Source: Deinococcales bacterium (lineage in GTDB: Bacteria; Deinococcota; Deinococci; Deinococcales; JAAFIG01). From it: DNA of 50,358 nucleotides. The notes below the pieces were generated by a model. The model was not told where the DNA came from, made no database searches, and saw nothing but the letters and a program-made list of their open reading frames with translations. The position numbers were made by a program, and so were the translations under genes. The stretch covers positions 1-50,358 of the forward strand of contig JAAFJQ010000005.1 in assembly GCA_013298185.1 (NCBI GenBank), given 5' to 3'. Shown here piece by piece: positions 1-8,639 of this stretch (its first letter is position 1; every line of letters begins with the position of its first letter).

Positions 1-450
1 GCCTTGCCCAAATTCTCTGGTCATGCGTTCCACTGCGCTTTTAGCCGTGGCTTGTACCATTTTCTCGAAAGCGCGACTGCCCCATTTGTCGGTGCTTGGT
101 AACTCGAGGTGAATCGTGATTTGCAGAGCATAATGAATTTCAACCTTACCATTTTGAATGGCTCTCCCCTGCCCTGAAACGGCTGCCCAAGCCCTGCCTT
201 GGCGTGGTTGAGCGATCAGGTTTGCGCCCGTAGCATGTGGCTCGAGTATCGAATGAAAATCAAGGCGCTGCTCACCAAGAATTGGTACATCCACAATCAG
301 ATCAGCGTAGATGTTCTGCTCCATGACTCGCAGTCCACGGATAAATCGCACATGGGCGAGGCTTTTTTGCACATCACAGAGGTAGGAAGTAGCTTGCTCG
401 AGGCTGTTTGGGTACTCGAGGGTAAAGTCTTTGCTGACTTCGATGTTCAT
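1..450 (-). CDS. Partial conserved protein, DUF3809/SRPBCC-like
   Basis: A reading frame on the minus strand starts at ATG 450 (MNIEVSKDFTLEYP...) and stays open for 150 codons to the window edge, so the C-terminus is missing. The visible part alternates predicted beta strands with a final amphipathic helix (AFEKMVQATAKSAVERM), as in SRPBCC-fold proteins such as the Deinococcus DUF3809 family. That family assignment is from memory and is tentative. No signal peptide or membrane segment is seen. It lies 28 bp behind the 83-codon gene and is probably the last visible gene of the operon that begins at 5809. The biochemical role is unknown. Confidence 0.6.
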   Translation of the reverse strand, partial: MNIEVSKDFTLEYPNSLEQATSYLCDVQKSLAHVRFIRGLRVMEQNIYADLIVDVPILGEQRLDFHSILEPHATGANLIAQPRQGRAWAAVSGQGRAIQNGKVEIHYALQITIHLELPSTDKWGSRAFEKMVQATAKSAVERMTREFGQG

Positions 451-478
451 GGTTGATTCGATCCACGTAACAAGAGGC

Positions 479-730
479 TCATTCGATCCACTCGACGATC
501 ATTTCATTTTCTTTGGCAGCCGCAGCGATTTCTTGGTCGGTTGCGCCGCGCAGCTTGGGTAAATCCCTAAAACTCTGGGTCGCATTGGCATAACCAACCC
601 GAACGATGATTTTTTCTGAGATTTCGTCCTTGCCGATTTTCCAGACCAACTGATTGCCTAAGCTCTCGAGTTGTTCGCGCAGCACTCGAGATTCGGGGAT
701 GACGGCTGCATCTTCAAACAAATCGTCCAC
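479..730 (-). CDS. Small hypothetical protein, 83 aa
   Basis: Begins MDDLFEDAAVIPES and ends NEMIVEWIE. It is acidic, soluble, mostly helical by composition, and has no signal peptide. I do not recognise the family. It sits in line with the upstream TelA/VWA operon and the downstream DUF3809-like gene on the same strand. However, about 220 bp of repeat-rich non-coding DNA separates it from the XpaC-like gene, so it may have its own promoter. The frame carries CTCGAG copies like its neighbours, which fits a resident gene. Confidence 0.5.
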   Translation of the reverse strand: MDDLFEDAAVIPESRVLREQLESLGNQLVWKIGKDEISEKIIVRVGYANATQSFRDLPKLRGATDQEIAAAAKENEMIVEWIE

Positions 731-951
731 GCCAACAGCCTACCGCTCGAGGGGCGGGTTGGGCAAGTAGAGGAAAGAGGAAAGGCAAAAGACGAAAGTA
801 AAAGCCGTGGTCATTGCGAGCCGAGGGAGCGACCCAAGCCCGTTTCGCTCCTGTGTGTGCCACCAGTCCAGCCATGGGCGCGACGGTGCTGCTTTGGGGT
901 CAAGAACGAGGCGTGGCAATCTCTTGAGCAACGTGTTTTTGGTTGATGCCT
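731..951. repeat. Intergenic repeat region with REP-like element and purine tract
   Basis: No convincing gene is present. 768-795 is a GAGGAAAGAGGAAAG purine tract that recurs at 16419, 34106 and 37798. 809-925 begins GGTCATTGCGAGCC and ends GGCGTGGCAATCTC, a form typical of REP-like intergenic elements. Sixteen bases at 891-906 (GCTTTGGGGTCAAGAA) are the exact reverse complement of 4384-4399, in another repeat-rich gap. The two gaps therefore hold copies of one dispersed element in opposite orientation. Confidence 0.6.
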
Positions 952-1557
952 TTACGAAAAAAAGTTCTCTGGTTTGGCGAATTTGTCTTCTAAGAATCGG
1001 CTGTTGACCAGCATTTTCTGTGCATCACCTTGGAGGACGTTGCTGCTGGCTTCTCGCACACTGGTCTCGAGCAGCGCGAGTTGCTCGAGCAGGATGGTCT
1101 TGGCGGTTTTGCCGTCCTTGATCGGGTGAATGTTGGCATAGGCGGGTGGTAATGCCAAATAATTTTCTAAGGTGTGCGGCAGGTAATCCAGTGCGGCTTG
1201 TTTGATGGCAAAGGCATCTTGTGTGCCTTGCGAGTTGCGGAGGCGCGGCAGCATTTCGACCACCAAGGTTTTGATGCTTTCGCAGCGAGCCACGGCTTCG
1301 GGTGGTAAGCGCCGTTTGGCTTTGTTTATCATTTGCTCGAGGGCGTTTTTGATGTCGGCATCTGCCAAGTTTTGTTTTAACTCGAGGTCTGAGCGATTTG
1401 GTGGGTTGAGCATCATGCCAACCAAGTACAAGCCCGGCACGATCAAGTACCAAAAATCTTTGATGATTCCCGTAAAGTACAGTGCCAAGCCTGCCAGCGC
1501 GAACAAGCAGCCGTACAAGTTGCGTTCTGAGTAAATGTATAACCAAAAGCCTCGCAT
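952..1557 (-). CDS. XpaC-like membrane protein of the TelA operon
   Basis: 201 aa. Two hydrophobic segments near residues 13-31 and 33-52 form a hairpin. The remainder is a charged, helical cytoplasmic domain containing DYLPHTLENYLALPPAY. This architecture matches the XpaC (5-bromo-4-chloroindolyl phosphate hydrolysis) family, whose members are often next to telA; the call rests on architecture and context, not an alignment. Its ATG overlaps the stop of the VWA lipoprotein gene in a TAATG, so translation is probably coupled. A function in envelope stress with TelA is inferred. Confidence 0.6.
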   Translation of the reverse strand: MRGFWLYIYSERNLYGCLFALAGLALYFTGIIKDFWYLIVPGLYLVGMMLNPPNRSDLELKQNLADADIKNALEQMINKAKRRLPPEAVARCESIKTLVVEMLPRLRNSQGTQDAFAIKQAALDYLPHTLENYLALPPAYANIHPIKDGKTAKTILLEQLALLETSVREASSNVLQGDAQKMLVNSRFLEDKFAKPENFFS

Positions 1558-3038
1558 TATTGGTATCCTCGGATTTCCTTGAAGGCAGCCTCGAGCGATT
1601 TGCGTCCGTCAAACATCCGTCCGCCTGTGAGTGTGGCGAGGTTGTTCATTTCGTCGGTGTTGCCCTCGCCGAAGAGAATCGGGAAGAGTTTAATGGGTTT
1701 TGCTGCTTTCAGCGCTGCAAAACGCGCTTCAAAGGCATTGTAATCATCACCAGCGTTGTTTTCGCCATCGGTCATCAGCACCACGCTAAAGGCACGGTCT
1801 GGCTCGAGTGGCACGGTTTTCTCGAGGAAATCATAGGCTGTGCCGAGCGCATCGTAAATGGCAGTACCGCCATCGAGTTGCAGAGCATCCACTCGAGTCT
1901 GGATTTCTTGTCGGGTGGTATCACCTGTGATGGTCAGGGTTTGTGGCGCACTGACATTTTTTGAGAAGGTGATGATCGTGACTTTCTCGCGGTTTTGGAA
2001 TTTGGTGTACTGCGCCCCGAGGCTCGAGTCGGCTCCTGCTAAGCGTTTCATCGCGGTTTTCAGTACAGCAATTCGTTCGCCTTCCATGCTGGCAGAAACA
2101 TCCAGCACAAAGACACTATGGGCAGGACGGCGTTGCTCGGATAAAAATTGCGTCAGGATGCTTGCAACTTCGGCACTCGAGGCAGGGAAGGGCAATTCAA
2201 CCAACAAGGCGTTGGGAAAAGCACTCGAGGGTGGCACGGATGTTACCGCAGGGCGGCGCAAGGTGCTGTCCATAATTTGTTTTTGGATTTTATCGGAGCG
2301 CAAGTAATCCACGACTTTTTGGTATAGCTCGCGCTTGCTGTTATCGAGCAGCACCAACGGATAATCGGCGGTGACAATGCCTTCTTTGGGGTACAACAGC
2401 ACCAATGGCTCGGAAAGTTTAGCTTGGATGCTCAGCAGCACACTTTCGTAGTTAATCATGCCGTCCAAATTGGCTTGGTCACGCACAAAGGCTTCGGCTA
2501 ACCAGCCGCTCGAGCCTGCGGTTAAACGTTGCCCTGCAAAGAATTTTTTCAGGGTTTCATTCTTACCAGCAAAAGCCGCATGAACGCCCATCAGCGCGGT
2601 AAAACCACTGTTCGAGGTGGTCGGATTGGTCATGGCGTAACGCAATTGCCCGCTTTCAGAAGCCTTGGCAATATCGCCCCAAGTGATGTTTTTACCAGCC
2701 CAACCGAGTTTCTGCACCACGCTGCGCTTCACGCCAAGTACCACAGGCGAGAGCATGATGCGTTCCTCGGCTTGGACTTTTTCTTTGGCTTCGAGTTTTA
2801 GGTACTTGGCATGGGAGAACCACGCCGCATCAAACGCCTCGCCGTTGCGGATGCGTTCCACGCCATCCAGCGTGCCTGAGTACGTGATGTTCAGTTCAAC
2901 CCCAATGTCTTTTTGCATCTGTGCAAAAATCGGCTCGAGGTCTTTGATTTCCGAACCAGCAATCAGGTTCAGCGTACTCGGCGTTGAGTTACACCCAACG
3001 AACAACACCACCAGCAGCACCCACCACAGCCGCGCCAT
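1557..3038 (-). CDS. Lipoprotein: solute-binding domain fused to VWA domain
   Basis: 493 aa. A lipoprotein signal ends in LFVGC (Cys16), so the protein should be anchored outside the membrane. Residues about 22-270 resemble a type 2 periplasmic binding protein (NLIAGSEIKDLEPIF..., AAWFSHAKYL). Residues about 305-490 form a von Willebrand A domain with the metal-site motif DVSAS (D313, S315, S317) and a later MTDGEN. VWA domains bind protein partners through a metal ion, so this looks like a ligand sensor joined to an interaction module. Start and stop overlap telA and the XpaC-like gene by one base (TAATG at both ends), indicating one coupled unit. Confidence 0.85.
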   Translation of the reverse strand: MARLWWVLLVVLFVGCNSTPSTLNLIAGSEIKDLEPIFAQMQKDIGVELNITYSGTLDGVERIRNGEAFDAAWFSHAKYLKLEAKEKVQAEERIMLSPVVLGVKRSVVQKLGWAGKNITWGDIAKASESGQLRYAMTNPTTSNSGFTALMGVHAAFAGKNETLKKFFAGQRLTAGSSGWLAEAFVRDQANLDGMINYESVLLSIQAKLSEPLVLLYPKEGIVTADYPLVLLDNSKRELYQKVVDYLRSDKIQKQIMDSTLRRPAVTSVPPSSAFPNALLVELPFPASSAEVASILTQFLSEQRRPAHSVFVLDVSASMEGERIAVLKTAMKRLAGADSSLGAQYTKFQNREKVTIITFSKNVSAPQTLTITGDTTRQEIQTRVDALQLDGGTAIYDALGTAYDFLEKTVPLEPDRAFSVVLMTDGENNAGDDYNAFEARFAALKAAKPIKLFPILFGEGNTDEMNNLATLTGGRMFDGRKSLEAAFKEIRGYQ

Positions 3039-4231
3039 TAGATCTTGTATCCTTCGGTCAATGCCTGAGCTTCTGGTTCGATGGTCTGGGCTTTAGCGCG
3101 GTCTAAGTATTGCTTGGATTTACTGACTTCCTCGGCTAAGACCCCAACGGTTTGCTGCATCGTCTCGAGGGCTTCGGCTTTGTAACTGCTCATGTTGTCC
3201 ATAGCCGTGTAAATGTTGTCAAAGGCAGCTTTGAGGCTGTCAATGCCAATGGTGGTATTGACACTTTGCTTAGCAATGGCATCCGACTGTCCAAGCAGCA
3301 TCTTGGAAGTGGATTCAATCAAATTACTGGTTGTGGCGTTCAGCGCGTTAATCTGGTCAAGCACCAATTTTTGATTGGCGAGGGCTTGCGCCACCATCAC
3401 CGCTGTTCGCAATGCCGTGACGGTGGTGGTACTGGCACGATCACAGCCTTTAATCAACTCGAGGTTGTTTTTTCTAACCAAATCCAGCGCCAAGTAACCC
3501 TGAATCGAAACCGCTAACTGCACCAACAAATCCTGCACTTTTTGCCGAGTGTAAAACAGCATTTCATCTCGCACCACTCGAGCTTTCTCAGGGTCGGAGC
3601 TTTGCAGTTCTGCCACTCGAGCCTCGAGTTTCGTATCAATTTGCTTACCAATAAAAATATAACCTTGAATGGCTTGCATTGCCGCCCACAAATTAACTTT
3701 TTCTTGTTCGATGCTGGCGTTATCCTTACGCAGTTCATCCTGACCACGGTACAAACTCTCGAGAATTTTATTGAGGTTCGTCTGAGCGCTTTCATAACGC
3801 ATGAAGTAATCGCGCAGCTTATCGCCAAAAGGAATCAGACCAAACAATTTTTTCGGCGCGAACATATCACCTTGTTTGCTTGGGTCAAGGTCTTCAACGG
3901 TACGCCGCAACTCGGTCAGCGACTTAGAAACAGGCGTATTTCCATCCTGCAAGCCCTTACTGGCAGCCAACGGACGATCCATCATCCGATTAGACACACT
4001 GGCTGCCTGACGTGCCTCGGCATTCCCAAGGTCATTGATAGCCACCATGCGCTGCTTAAACTCCTCGGAATGCACATCGAGCTTAATCACATCCTCAACA
4101 AAATCATCCGCCCGATCCTCGAGTTCAGTCAACTGTTCGGGCTTTAACTTCACCATGCCATCGGCTTTCTCGACAGGCACAGGTTGCACGGCTTCTGGAG
4201 CGGTCAGGGTTTCGGGTGGGGAGAGTTCCAT
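3038..4231 (-). CDS. telA: TelA family (toxic anion resistance) protein
   Basis: 397 aa, soluble and almost entirely helical with long coiled-coil stretches. It matches the TelA family in length and in features such as FGLIPFGDKLRDYFMRYESAQTNLNKI (two adjacent pieces) and a conserved C-terminal run ending VSKSKQYLDRAKA. TelA proteins were named for tellurite resistance but act more widely in envelope stress; the mechanism is not known. The start has a strong AAGGAGG seven bases before ATG. The gene is coupled to the VWA lipoprotein gene and follows the 354-aa binding protein after a repeat-filled gap of about 500 bp. Confidence 0.88.
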   Translation of the reverse strand: MELSPPETLTAPEAVQPVPVEKADGMVKLKPEQLTELEDRADDFVEDVIKLDVHSEEFKQRMVAINDLGNAEARQAASVSNRMMDRPLAASKGLQDGNTPVSKSLTELRRTVEDLDPSKQGDMFAPKKLFGLIPFGDKLRDYFMRYESAQTNLNKILESLYRGQDELRKDNASIEQEKVNLWAAMQAIQGYIFIGKQIDTKLEARVAELQSSDPEKARVVRDEMLFYTRQKVQDLLVQLAVSIQGYLALDLVRKNNLELIKGCDRASTTTVTALRTAVMVAQALANQKLVLDQINALNATTSNLIESTSKMLLGQSDAIAKQSVNTTIGIDSLKAAFDNIYTAMDNMSSYKAEALETMQQTVGVLAEEVSKSKQYLDRAKAQTIEPEAQALTEGYKI

Positions 4232-4744
4232 GGTTGCCTCCTTGGGGCTATGGGCTTTGAGCTATGGGCTTTGAGGGTTAAAAGGTTAAAAGTTTTGTGT
4301 AGGGTAGGCTCTGCCTACCGGTTTTGCTCGAGACTCGAGAAAGAAAATGTGATTCAGCAACAGCCAGCCCTCTCCCAGCTCGCTTCTTGACCCCAAAGCG
4401 CCACCTGACGGGGCTGGGTCGCTTAGGCTCGCTACCCTCTCGCCGCGCAAACGCGACTTTGACTGGTCGAGCGAAGCTCGTGGAGCAAGGTAAACACAAC
4501 TTTTATGTCGAAGCACAGGGTTGTTCGGGTTTGCTTTTTGTTGTAGTTGCTCGTCTCGAGAAGCCAATTCCATGACCTCAGCACCCCTCTTTGAGGGGTC
4601 GAGCGAGCGACCATGCCCGTCAGGTGCGCGTTTATGGTCAAGAGAAGCGAGGGGGAGTACCTGACTCATTGCGTTTTTTGATTTGTTCCTCGAGAGAATT
4701 CCTTAAGTCCATGATGTGGGCAAAGCCCACCCTACCTCTTTCCT
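4232..4744. repeat. Repeat-rich gap between binding-protein gene and telA
   Basis: No gene is supported in these 513 bp. 4248-4277 holds a 14-bp tandem (CTATGGGCTTTGAG twice), also seen around 16383-16410. 4384-4435 contains TTCTTGACCCCAAAGC, then GGGCTGGGTCGCT and GGCTCGC, which parallels the reverse complement of 809-906. 4583-4615 has CCCCTCTTTGAGGGG followed by TCGAGCGAGCG; a close relative is at 29391-29430. It looks like an accumulation of short non-coding elements. It may separate expression of telA from the gene upstream. Confidence 0.6.
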
Positions 4745-5809
4745 CTATCTTTTCTCGATCTTCTGTATCATGCCCTCGAGAATTTCGTAACTCGGTGCGT
4801 CTACGACATTCACAAGGTTATCTTTGATCGGAAACTGGTACTGTTGAACCGCAGCAGCAAAAGCGGTGGGGTTGTTGGGGCGAAATCCGTATTTGGCAGC
4901 GATGCGTTGGACGTTGGGGTCGTTGGTCAGGAGTTCTCCGAGTTTGCTGCCATTTTCGGTCAGTGGAATCAGGATGTGCTTGGTGAAGATGGTCGGGCTT
5001 GGGTACATCAGGCGCATGTCTGGGCGGAGGGCTTTTTCAACGACTTTCTCGAGGTATTGCGATTCGTAGATGAAAACCATGGGGGATTTGCCGATGCCGA
5101 TTAAGAAGTAATCCTCGAATGAGCCTGCGCTCGAGGATTCTTGGAAGCCTTGCTTGGCAAACAATGAGGTGGCAATGGGCAGGACGGCGTTGGCTTCGGT
5201 TTCGCTCGAGACAATGTTTTTGTTGTTCAGTAAGTACGAAACCAGGGCTAAATACTGGGCGGCGCTGTTGCTGCTTCGGACATCGGTGGTGCTGATTAAA
5301 ACAGGTTTAGACACATCGTAATCGGTGCTGTTTTTCAGGTCTGACCAGCGTTTACCTGCTTTGAATAACTCGAGAAACGCAGCTAAGTTCAGTTCATCGT
5401 ACTTGCCTTTATTGTTGGCTACGCCGTTGGCAACCAGTATGCTCGAGATTGGTTTCCATGTGGCGATTGCCATGGGGCTGAAAAAAACATCGAAGGTGGC
5501 TGAGATTTTTTTCGAGTTCTTGAGTTTCTGGGCGGCGGGTGTACCACCAGGGAAGGCAAAATCAAATCCTGTCAGGTCAAAGGTGGTGGCGATGGCTCTC
5601 GAGCCGACTTTGACGACTTGGACTTCAAAGCCTTTGTCTTTCAGGACTTGTTTTAATTCTGGGTCAGCAAAAAAGGCTTCTTTTTCAGAGCCAATTGCGC
5701 CTTTGATGATGGTTGGACCCGCGAGTTGCTGACGGGCTGAGGTAAAAATCAAGTAACCCACGCCTAGAACAAGCAGAACTGTGAACAGTGGAGCTAAAAT
5801 TCGGTTCAA
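4745..5809 (-). CDS. Extracellular solute-binding protein of the TelA operon
   Basis: 354 aa. A membrane-spanning N-terminus (residues about 7-24, without a lipobox Cys) precedes a periplasmic-binding-protein-like domain (IIKGAIGSEKEAFF..., FDFAFPGGTPAAQKL, VLISTTDVRSSNSAAQYLAL). No permease gene is nearby. Together with the binding-domain/VWA fusion two genes downstream, this suggests sensing or scaffolding rather than import. The start is TTG at 5809, chosen because GGAGG lies six bases upstream; no better in-frame ATG follows closely. It is the first gene of the minus-strand operon and is divergent from the gene at 6101. Confidence 0.75.
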   Translation of the reverse strand: MNRILAPLFTVLLVLGVGYLIFTSARQQLAGPTIIKGAIGSEKEAFFADPELKQVLKDKGFEVQVVKVGSRAIATTFDLTGFDFAFPGGTPAAQKLKNSKKISATFDVFFSPMAIATWKPISSILVANGVANNKGKYDELNLAAFLELFKAGKRWSDLKNSTDYDVSKPVLISTTDVRSSNSAAQYLALVSYLLNNKNIVSSETEANAVLPIATSLFAKQGFQESSSAGSFEDYFLIGIGKSPMVFIYESQYLEKVVEKALRPDMRLMYPSPTIFTKHILIPLTENGSKLGELLTNDPNVQRIAAKYGFRPNNPTAFAAAVQQYQFPIKDNLVNVVDAPSYEILEGMIQKIEKR

Positions 5810-5932
5810 GAGCAGCCTCCGATGGCAGTATGTCTGGGGTTTGTCAGCATTTCATCTGTACCATACGCGATGTTGTCTAAAATAGTTCCAAATTGTCAGA
5901 TATGCACGTATCAGGAAGCAATCTTGAATGCT

Positions 5933-6067
5933 CTCGAGGTGCGAGTCCCGTGCGATTCTCGAGGTGCGAAGTTCCGTGCGATTCTCGAGGTGCGAAGTTC
6001 CGTGCGATTCTCGAGGTGCGAAGTTCCGTGCGATTCTCGAGGTGCGAAGTTCCGTGCGATTCTCGAG
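5933..6067. repeat. 26-bp tandem repeat array, five units
   Basis: Units start with CTCGAG at 5933 (25 bp, divergent), 5958, 5984, 6010 and 6036, and a final CTCGAG at 6062 closes the array. The four later units are identical. Each unit holds two GTGCGA boxes 12 bp apart. The period is not a multiple of three, so a frame shifts from unit to unit and the array is not coding. It ends where a -35 element for the next gene would lie, so it may be a tandem protein-binding site. Confidence 0.93.
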
Positions 6068-6087
6068 GTTCACATCTTGGCTTGGGG

Positions 6088-6093
6088 TATCTT
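6088..6093 (+). promoter_or_regulatory. -10 element TATCTT for the orphan binding-protein gene
   Basis: TATCTT lies seven bases before the ATG at 6101, and no ribosome-binding site lies between them. This is the leaderless arrangement seen for many genes in this window. No good -35 is visible; the end of the 26-bp array occupies that position. Confidence 0.5.
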
Positions 6094-6100
6094 GCGGCTG

Positions 6101-7000
6101 ATGCGAGCTTATTGGATTGGCTTAACTTTATTTTTTGGTTCTTTGGCGTTGTCACAAACAACCTCACCCGCCGATTTACCGCCGATCAGCAATCCAAAAC
6201 CAACACCGTCTGTTCCTAAGCCCACAACGCCAAAACCCGTGCCTCAGCCTGTCGCACCACCCGTGGCTACTGTTAGCCTCGAGAATTCAAAAACTGTGCA
6301 AACCATTCGAGCCAGAGGGCGTTTGATTGTGGCACTTGACCCACAATTTGCTCCGTTTGCGCTGCGTGACGAAAAAGGCAAAATTGTTGGTTTTGATGTG
6401 GACTTAGCCAAAACCATTGCAGCCCAAATTGGTGTGCCGCTCGAGGCGCAAACCACGGTGTTTGGTGGTTTGCTGAACGCTGTAAAGGTTGGTAGAGCCG
6501 ATTTTGCCGGCAGTGGCTTGACTCCAACCTCGAGAAAAGATGTGCAGTACTCTGAGCCTTTTTTTGATAACGCACAGATTTTTGTGGTGCGGGCAGGTAA
6601 TCCAACCAAATTTGTTTTTCAAAGCCCCAATCAGCCAATTGCTGACTTATCGGGTAAGCAAATTGGTGTCCGAGCCAACACCATTGGTTTCTTGGCAGCT
6701 TTTCAGCGCCTTGTGCCGCTGGGCGCAAAAATCAATGTTTTTGACAGCAACCAAAAAGCCTTGGCGGCTTTGCAAAACGGCAAGATCGAAAGCCTGATTT
6801 TGGATGCACCCAGTTTTGCGGTTTATCGTGGACGCAGAATCCCCATTGACAAGGTTTCGGGGGTCTTGGTGCAGGAACGTTATGTGTTTGTTTTGCCTAA
6901 AGATTCGGATTTACCACCAATTATCAATCAAGCCATTGTAACTTGGCGACAAAGCGGTGGGTATTTCAAAGCGCTCGAAAAGTGGATGCTCGACAGATGA
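6101..7000 (+). CDS. Amino-acid-type ABC substrate-binding protein (family 3), orphan
   Basis: 299 aa from ATG 6101. A signal peptide (MRAYWIGLTLFFGSLALSQ) is followed by a proline-rich linker (residues about 25-55), then an SBP family 3 domain (RGRLIVALDPQFAPFALRD, GFDVDLAKTIAAQIG, DFAGSGLTPTSRKDVQYSEPFF). These proteins bind amino acids or related small molecules outside the membrane. No permease or ATPase gene is adjacent, so the partner must be elsewhere or the protein acts alone. An in-frame ORF reaches back to 5822, but that stretch is the tandem repeat. The stop codon lies in a second 26-bp tandem repeat. Confidence 0.85.
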   Translation: MRAYWIGLTLFFGSLALSQTTSPADLPPISNPKPTPSVPKPTTPKPVPQPVAPPVATVSLENSKTVQTIRARGRLIVALDPQFAPFALRDEKGKIVGFDVDLAKTIAAQIGVPLEAQTTVFGGLLNAVKVGRADFAGSGLTPTSRKDVQYSEPFFDNAQIFVVRAGNPTKFVFQSPNQPIADLSGKQIGVRANTIGFLAAFQRLVPLGAKINVFDSNQKALAALQNGKIESLILDAPSFAVYRGRRIPIDKVSGVLVQERYVFVLPKDSDLPPIINQAIVTWRQSGGYFKALEKWMLDR

Positions 7001-7056
7001 GCCTACTGGTCACGCTGGTCAGATGAGCCTACTGGTCACGCTGGTCAGATGAGCCT
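6995..7056. repeat. 26-bp tandem repeat over the stop codon, 2.4 copies
   Basis: Unit AGATGAGCCTACTGG then TCACGCTGGTC occurs at 6995-7020 and 7021-7046, with a partial copy (AGATGAGCCT) at 7047-7056. The TGA of the binding-protein gene (6998-7000) is inside unit 1. The period equals that of the array before the gene, but the sequences are unrelated. Confidence 0.9.
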
Positions 7057-7093
7057 GCGTTCTCGAGTTCCAACTCACATTCAAAAACCAAAA

Positions 7094-7107
7094 TACAATG
7101 TATTGTA
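7094..7107 (+). promoter_or_regulatory. Promoter -10 region and palindrome before the monooxygenase gene
   Basis: TACAAT (7094-7099), GT, ATTGTA (7102-7107) is a perfect inverted repeat around two bases. TATTGT (7101-7106) stands six bases before ATG 7113, the usual leaderless spacing here. The palindrome could also be a small operator. Confidence 0.45.
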
Positions 7108-7112
7108 AGCGT

Positions 7113-8639
7113 ATGATGAAACCCAATTGGCTGATTGCAGTTGCCTTGATCTTCGGTGGGGCATTGGCTGCCCGCACCTTAAGCACCCAAAATACCTTGG
7201 TCAGCGAAACCCGCACCATCAAAAACCACCATGGTGGTTTAACAACCGTTGCCATGCAGCAAACCCAGCCGCCGCTCTTGAGTTACGTCCCAACCTATTA
7301 CCGCGATGTGCAACCAATCATAGATAAAAACTGCGTTGGCTGTCATGTGGACGGCGGCATTGCTCCGTTTAGCCTCGAGAATCCCAAAGACGCCGTTCAA
7401 TACGCTCGAGATGCCCAATTCGCTGTCCAAGGCAAACGCATGCCACCATGGATGCCCGGCGGTGAAAGCCCCAAATTCAAAGACGAAACCAAACTGACCG
7501 ATGAAGAAATTGCGATCATTGCCAACTGGGCATGGGCTGGAGCGCCACTTGGCAAAATAGCCGATGCCAAACCTCGAGTCACACCAGTTGCCCGTATTCA
7601 AAAAGCCGACGTCACCATGGACATTGGAAAGCCATTTACACCCAATCCCAGTTACACCGACGAATACCGTTGCTTTATTGTAGACCCCAAAGTGGACACC
7701 GAGCGTTTTATCACAGGTTATGACATTGTGCCAGGCAATAAAAAAATGGTGCATCATGTGATTATTTTTACGGTTGAACCTCAAAAGGTAGCTGATATTC
7801 GTAAGCTCGAGCAGAACGCCGATGGACGCGGTGGTTACGAATGCTTCGGCGGACCCGGTGTACCGATTCGCCTTGGCGCAGGCACAAGCGGTTTGGGCTT
7901 TAGCATCATGGGAAACTGGGTTCCTGGCACAGCTGGTGGAGTGCAGTACCCAAGTGGTACAGGCATTGCCCTAAAGCCCGGCACAGTCTTGGTTTTACAA
8001 GTGCATTACAACTTATTGGGCGGCAAAGGCGATGACCGCACCGTAGCTAAACTGAACCTTGCTCCTCAAGGCGAAAAAATCACCAGATTGAGCAGCAGCT
8101 TGTTCTTATCGCCCGTCGAAGTGGCGTGTCCAAGCGGCATCAGCACCGACCCCAACAACGCCTGTTCTCGAGAAGCCGCCTATAAAAGCGTAGAGCCGTA
8201 CCAAGAACCAGAACTGACCACTGCCCTCAGAAGTGGTTTGCTGCTGACCTACTGCCAAACCAAGCCCAAGTACGAAAATGGAATCACCACCACCCAATGC
8301 GAATTTCCTGTTACAGCTGACCGCAGCATCCTACGCATCCAAGCCCACATGCACCTCCTTGGTAAAGCAGTCAAGCTCGAGGTCAACCCCAATAAAAACA
8401 CCCGCAAAGTACTGCTCGACATTCCACGCTGGGATTTCCACTGGCAAACAGGTTACGCCCTCGAGAAACCGATTGAAGTATCCAAAGGCGATGTGGTGCG
8501 CTTAACCTGCACATGGGATAACACCAAAGAAAACCAGCCGTGGTTAAATGGCAAACAACTCGAGCCTCGCTACGCGGTTTGGGGCGAAGGGACGAGGGAT
8601 GAGATGTGCTTAGCAGGGTTTACGGCTGCCCCAAGGTAA
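7113..8639 (+). CDS. Cytochrome c domain fused to copper type II monooxygenase-like domain
   Basis: 508 aa from ATG 7113 (7116 is an alternative). A signal segment (NWLIAVALIFGGALAA) is followed by a cytochrome c-like domain with CVGCH (C74, C77, H78) and possible axial Met in RMPPWMPGG. The C-terminal two thirds resemble peptidylglycine/dopamine hydroxylases. HH in MVHHVIIF (H214, H215) and the His of QVHYN (H298) match the CuH site; HMH (H412, H414) and Met498 in DEMCLAGF match the CuM site. All six expected copper ligands are present, so the enzyme is probably an active exported O2-dependent hydroxylase. The fused haem domain may supply electrons in place of ascorbate. The substrate is unknown. 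Confidence 0.82.
   Translation: MMKPNWLIAVALIFGGALAARTLSTQNTLVSETRTIKNHHGGLTTVAMQQTQPPLLSYVPTYYRDVQPIIDKNCVGCHVDGGIAPFSLENPKDAVQYARDAQFAVQGKRMPPWMPGGESPKFKDETKLTDEEIAIIANWAWAGAPLGKIADAKPRVTPVARIQKADVTMDIGKPFTPNPSYTDEYRCFIVDPKVDTERFITGYDIVPGNKKMVHHVIIFTVEPQKVADIRKLEQNADGRGGYECFGGPGVPIRLGAGTSGLGFSIMGNWVPGTAGGVQYPSGTGIALKPGTVLVLQVHYNLLGGKGDDRTVAKLNLAPQGEKITRLSSSLFLSPVEVACPSGISTDPNNACSREAAYKSVEPYQEPELTTALRSGLLLTYCQTKPKYENGITTTQCEFPVTADRSILRIQAHMHLLGKAVKLEVNPNKNTRKVLLDIPRWDFHWQTGYALEKPIEVSKGDVVRLTCTWDNTKENQPWLNGKQLEPRYAVWGEGTRDEMCLAGFTAAPR

Follow-up and report, generated by a model that had tools for sequence, protein, structure and literature searches.

A 26-bp tandem array next to a leaderless promoter in a Deinococcales bacterium is probably a lineage-specific minisatellite on genome-wide CTCGAG sites

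Results

A tandem array between two divergent genes

The window, i.e. the whole stretch of 50,358 bp that was analysed, contains a tandem array at 5933-6069 in the intergenic region shared by two divergent genes. The following features are relevant (evidence in brackets):

4745-5809, minus strand: 354-aa protein without Pfam match, divergently transcribed (ORF call, profile search)
5933-5957, plus strand: divergent array unit 1, 25 bp, CTCGAGGTGCGAGTCCCGTGCGATT (sequence)
5958-6061, plus strand: array units 2-5, four identical 26-mers, CTCGAGGTGCGAAGTTCCGTGCGATT (sequence, TRF, lag-26 run)
6062-6069, plus strand: partial unit (8-bp stub) CTCGAGGT, overlapping the position expected for a -35 hexamer (6065-6070 with a 17-bp spacer)
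6088-6093, plus strand: TATCTT, likely the -10 box of a leaderless promoter (13 nt before the ATG at 6101)
6101-7000, plus strand: family 3 extracellular solute-binding protein, 299 aa, with signal peptide (PF00497, E=7.7e-25; start backed by an orthologue)
6994-7056, plus strand: second 26-bp array, CAGATGAGCCTACTGGTCACGCTGGT, 2.4 copies (the binding-protein gene has its TGA stop within the first unit)

The regularity of the first array is far beyond chance: TRF reported 5932-6069 with a period of 26, 5.3 copies, 98% matches and a score of 262, and the array includes an exact run of 96 bases at a lag of 26. Units 2-5 start at 5958, 5984, 6010 and 6036, and each of them carries one CTCGAG and two GTGCGA boxes that are 12 bp apart. 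An earlier note on this DNA had described five 26-bp units, all with this arrangement; the array is real and the description is accurate for units 2-5, but unit 1 comprises only 25 bp with its GTGCGA boxes 11 bp apart, and the 8-bp stub comes in addition. The second array was missing from that note. In total, CTCGAG is present six times in the first array, including one copy at either end, and (T)CTCGAGGT is found at both edges. An 89-nt query matched the genome at this locus only, and no Rfam match was detected in 5700-7200 up to E=0.1.

The array is non-coding and abuts a leaderless promoter

There is no stop codon within the array on either strand, and a 392-aa ORF (5822-7000) crosses it and continues in the frame of the binding protein. 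The argument that the repeat period would break the reading frame is thus not correct, since none of the plus-strand frames is stopped in the array. Nevertheless, the array is non-coding, because the same-genus orthologue (L010) starts at the residue equivalent to 6101 (M-R...GSLALSQT in the alignment, with a signal peptide) and because TANNNT boxes peak genome-wide at -12 from the ATG. This position was occupied in 109 of 678 genes of this bacterium, compared to 35 genes at -13, 29 at -11 and a background of about 10, and the peak is the mark of widespread leaderless genes in the genome. The orthologue likewise has TATTGT, a leaderless -10 box, at about -12 from its start. Translation from 5822, with the array encoding an N-terminal extension of the binding protein, would be allowed by the open frame, but it is extremely unlikely in view of the signal peptide, the start at 6101 with its conserved M-R, the -10-like box between array and ATG, and a repeat period that is not a multiple of three.

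The array ends at the place of a -35 hexamer, followed by TATCTT and a leaderless ATG, as had been noticed before, and the downstream gene indeed codes for a binding protein. Neither a sigma-70 consensus promoter nor an intrinsic terminator was found in 5700-6300. As to phase variation by copy number, which the earlier note considered possible, the array is located outside the spacer between -35 and -10, so that a change in copy number would leave the promoter spacing unaltered.

The GTGCGA pair does not recur at other promoters

If the paired boxes were operators, they might be expected before other genes, and a genome search for GTGCGA-N6-GTGCGA had been suggested. Apart from the array, the 4.41-Mb genome contains a single further site, and it lies inside the coding sequence of an hsp20-like gene; a second promoter with this pair was not found. 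Because the pair recurs only within this one gene, there is no GTGCGA regulon. The array is absent at the same-genus orthologue L010 (one orthologue, 56-58% identity), and the genes that neighbour the orthologue differ from those at the array locus.

CTCGAG is a highly iterated palindrome of the genome

The window contains 277 copies of CTCGAG, whereas 6.6 are predicted from dinucleotide frequencies. Genome-wide, 26,619 copies were counted in 4.41 Mb, i.e. one per 166 bp, compared to 4 copies of the letter-reversed control GAGCTC. In a 272-kb sample CTCGAG reached 41 times the dinucleotide expectation; the next palindromic hexamer reached 1.9 times, and many other palindromes were nearly absent. 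Genes contain 6.3 copies per kb and intergenic DNA 5.7, and CTC-GAG is used for 73% of the Leu-Glu pairs (3,271 of 4,507). By the definition of Elhai (2015, PMC4390886), CTCGAG is thus a highly iterated palindrome.

All four genomes of the family are rich in the palindrome, the other three with 27,000-28,000 copies each. Among four genomes of a sister family, two of one genus have about 6-8/kb, a third 3.6/kb and the fourth 0.3/kb, so that the palindrome-rich set consists of seven genomes (4/4 of the family and 3/4 of the sister family). In the other 103 genomes of the order that were searched, the density stays at or below about 3.4/kb. The reversed hexamer GAGCTC is present in only 2-25 copies per genome in the dense genomes G000 (the genome of this study), G001, G002, G003, G012 and G016; the partly dense G008 has 1,196, and elsewhere in the order about 300 to 4,400 were counted. 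Samples of G000, G001 and G003 also contained almost no GGCC. As a further observation, the closest solved structure for the glutaminyl-tRNA synthetase was 2hz7, the enzyme of Deinococcus radiodurans, in keeping with a probable place of the genome in the Deinococcota.

Conservation of CTCGAG at individual sites was considered and rejected. At conserved Leu-Glu pairs in orthologues of G000 and G001 with at least 70% identity, the palindrome was kept at 69 of 87 sites, and 14 of 28 pairs that are not palindromic in one genome are palindromic in the other. The turnover of CTCGAG is therefore fast and the bias is general.

Candidate enzymes for CTCGAG

Restriction by XhoI was rejected as an explanation for the palindrome, since an XhoI-type endonuclease is absent from the seven palindrome-rich genomes but present in a few others. 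Methyltransferases were searched in four Pfam families (PF07669, PF01555, PF00145 and PF02086, matches to the last being left unclustered), and a single orthologue common to all palindrome-rich genomes was not found in these families. The C5 methyltransferase class is represented in six of the seven palindrome-rich genomes and in none of nine others, but by different proteins. In G009 (C1:1094210-1096226; L134, L167, L168) an XhoI-like endonuclease gene with in-frame stops adjoins a gene for an Eco57I-family methyltransferase of 597 aa. G015 has a methyltransferase that is 48% identical to the one of G009, and no XhoI endonuclease was found there. In G003 (C40:29451-31355; L200, L204) a single frame of 651 aa encodes a C5 methyltransferase that is split into two halves by a long insert, possibly an intein.

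A class of arrays with periods of 23-27 bp

TRF was applied to 1.006 Mb of the 4.4-Mb genome (period 10-80, at least 85% matches) and detected 48 arrays. Thirty-five of them have a period of 23-27 bp (about 35 per Mb), distributed as 2, 15, 6, 6 and 6 over the periods 23, 24, 25, 26 and 27, and none has a period of 28-35. Arrays within genes have periods of 18, 21, 24, 27, 36 or 54, all multiples of three, and outside genes periods of 23, 25 and 26 occur, too. Note that the gene calls are mechanical and that the 5933-6069 array was listed as coding due to the spurious 392-aa ORF. Unit sequences are essentially unshared between loci, with the exception of one 46-bp match of 80% between two loci, and several arrays show no microhomology at their edges. 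Of the 35 units, 13 contain CTCGAG, whereas its density predicts about 5.4 (P=0.0015). CTCGAGGTGC, which had been considered as a special motif common to several arrays, occurs at 1.4 times expectation only and is scattered. Array density is lower in relatives (18/Mb in G001 and 9/Mb in G003, in samples of 0.08-0.34 Mb). At L082 (15102-15330) a stretch bounded by inverted copies, GAGCCTCCGAAAG and CTTTCGGAGGCTC, is located beside or within a 25-bp array and appears to have been inserted like a small mobile element.

Most of the non-coding arrays of the class are found on stop codons. In 17 of 24 the stop codon of a long ORF lies inside the first unit, and 12% would be expected if 25-bp units were placed at random outside coding DNA (P about 3e-11, an approximate value as the gene models are plain ORFs); stop-codon arrays are thus about six times commoner than predicted by random placement. 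They are located at 6994-7056 in the window and at L029, L032, L034, L069, L073, L075, L078, L080, L081, L082, L086, L096, L098, L100 and L103. Most of the proteins that end in such arrays look, as judged from their sequences, like familiar enzymes and transporters; presumably they include D-Ala-D-Ala ligase, aspartokinase, RuvC, phytoene synthase and others. The array at L100:320, a candidate for a promoter array, was rejected as such and sits on the stop codon of an FKBP-like ORF instead, as an additional case of this type. The 5933-6069 array is not of the stop-codon type and is among the few that are situated upstream of a gene.

Discussion

The 5933-6069 array is probably a lineage-specific minisatellite that developed on genome-wide CTCGAG sites and abuts a leaderless promoter, rather than a purpose-built operator. 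Its unit length falls within the range of roughly 10-100 bp that is typical of minisatellites, and the array is missing at the orthologous position of the one orthologue compared. We infer that a 26-bp stretch between two CTCGAGGT sites was repeatedly duplicated in tandem in this lineage. Slippage could have produced the duplications, or else unequal recombination, with the CTCGAG copies on either side providing microhomology. The mutational process behind them would favour duplications of about 25 bp and would be the one that makes the other arrays of this length in the genome. The array may then have been retained because it stops just outside the leaderless promoter. Its CTCGAG boxes would be instances of the genome-wide palindrome and not operators of this gene. 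It may be merely tolerated just upstream of the -10 box, or it may have been taken into regulation; secondarily, the array might influence how strongly the gene at 6101 is expressed.

The array shares with bacterial minisatellites and VNTRs (PMC2884548) local, near-identical tandem units of about 20-30 bp that occur in and between genes. It belongs, however, to a class with a narrow unit length of 23-27 bp, about 35 members per Mb, a strong excess on stop codons and units that often contain CTCGAG. Small dispersed repeats and palindromic units (PMC2884548) are similar in their length of about 20-37 bp, in being sometimes arranged in tandem and in their location mostly outside genes, but here the unit sequences are essentially not common to different loci.

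The earlier note had regarded the array as a platform with multiple sites, at which an activator or repressor bound to the paired GTGCGA boxes of each unit would control the binding-protein gene. Operator arrays and iterons are direct repeats beside a promoter with a period near 2.5 helical turns, and the array resembles them in these respects. It ends at the -35 place of a promoter that lacks a sigma-70 consensus and might thus depend on an activator, and its units 2-5 are identical, which weakly supports an operator platform. A dedicated operator is nevertheless unlikely: the GTGCGA pair is present at no second promoter in 4.41 Mb, CTCGAG is ubiquitous in the genome, the same-genus orthologue has no array, and the genome has many arrays of similar period whose units are unrelated and which lie elsewhere, mostly on stop codons. 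In contrast to typical operator arrays, there is also no known regulator. An enzyme acting at CTCGAG by nicking, methylation or recombination could alternatively cause pairs of sites about 25 bp apart to duplicate, so that the array would be an enzyme product and not the result of plain slippage. The enrichment of CTCGAG in the arrays and its presence at both ends of this one are in line with this idea; on the other hand, 22 of the 35 arrays are free of CTCGAG, the palindrome-rich genomes have no XhoI endonuclease, and no conserved CTCGAG methyltransferase was found in the four Pfam families searched. We consider this idea even less probable than an operator.

The copy number could be wrong because the assembly, a short-read metagenome-assembled genome, is broken into 457 contigs, and assembly easily goes wrong on tandem repeats that approach the read length. 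An artefact is, however, very unlikely, as unit 1 differs from the others, the array is located inside a 50-kb contig, and similar arrays at dozens of loci carry differences from unit to unit. Some points also speak against a minisatellite. Most non-coding members of the class straddle stop codons but this array is promoter-proximal, so that selection may have acted on where it lies. A function could also be indicated by the identity of four units and by an array edge that borders exactly on the promoter. The comparison comprises one same-genus genome with about 57% protein identity, and the mechanism is deduced, with edge microhomology missing in several arrays. The lack of function, too, is something that we infer.

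CTCGAG resembles HIP1 (GCGATCGC) and its alternates in cyanobacteria in that one palindrome is hugely over-represented throughout the genome, in genes and between genes, and is distributed at the level of families (Elhai 2015, PMC4390886). It differs by its occurrence outside cyanobacteria, by being a 6-mer without a GATC or GC core, and by its frequency of about 6,000 per Mb, where the 8-mer HIP1 reaches 300-2,700 per Mb (PMC4390886). A cognate DNA methyltransferase would be expected for a highly iterated palindrome (PMC4390886); none was identified for CTCGAG in the four families searched. Judged from titles and abstracts, the papers in the literature searched that use the phrase 'highly iterated palindrome' deal nearly all with cyanobacteria. 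We tentatively suggest, as a possibility rather than a favoured view, that CTCGAG marks the whole genome (in the literature searched, it would be the first such palindrome described outside cyanobacteria) and is kept by a dedicated repair or modification system, that a distinct mutational process generates tandem duplications of about 25 bp, which fall for the most part on stop codons, and that the array is the meeting place of both.

An apparent promoter repeat can thus be a by-product of genome-wide sequence habits. CTCGAG, denser by count than the cyanobacterial HIP1, offers an independent system for asking what makes or keeps such palindromes, and if arrays of about 25 bp are concentrated on stop codons, the mechanism of duplication would seem to be linked to the ends of genes.
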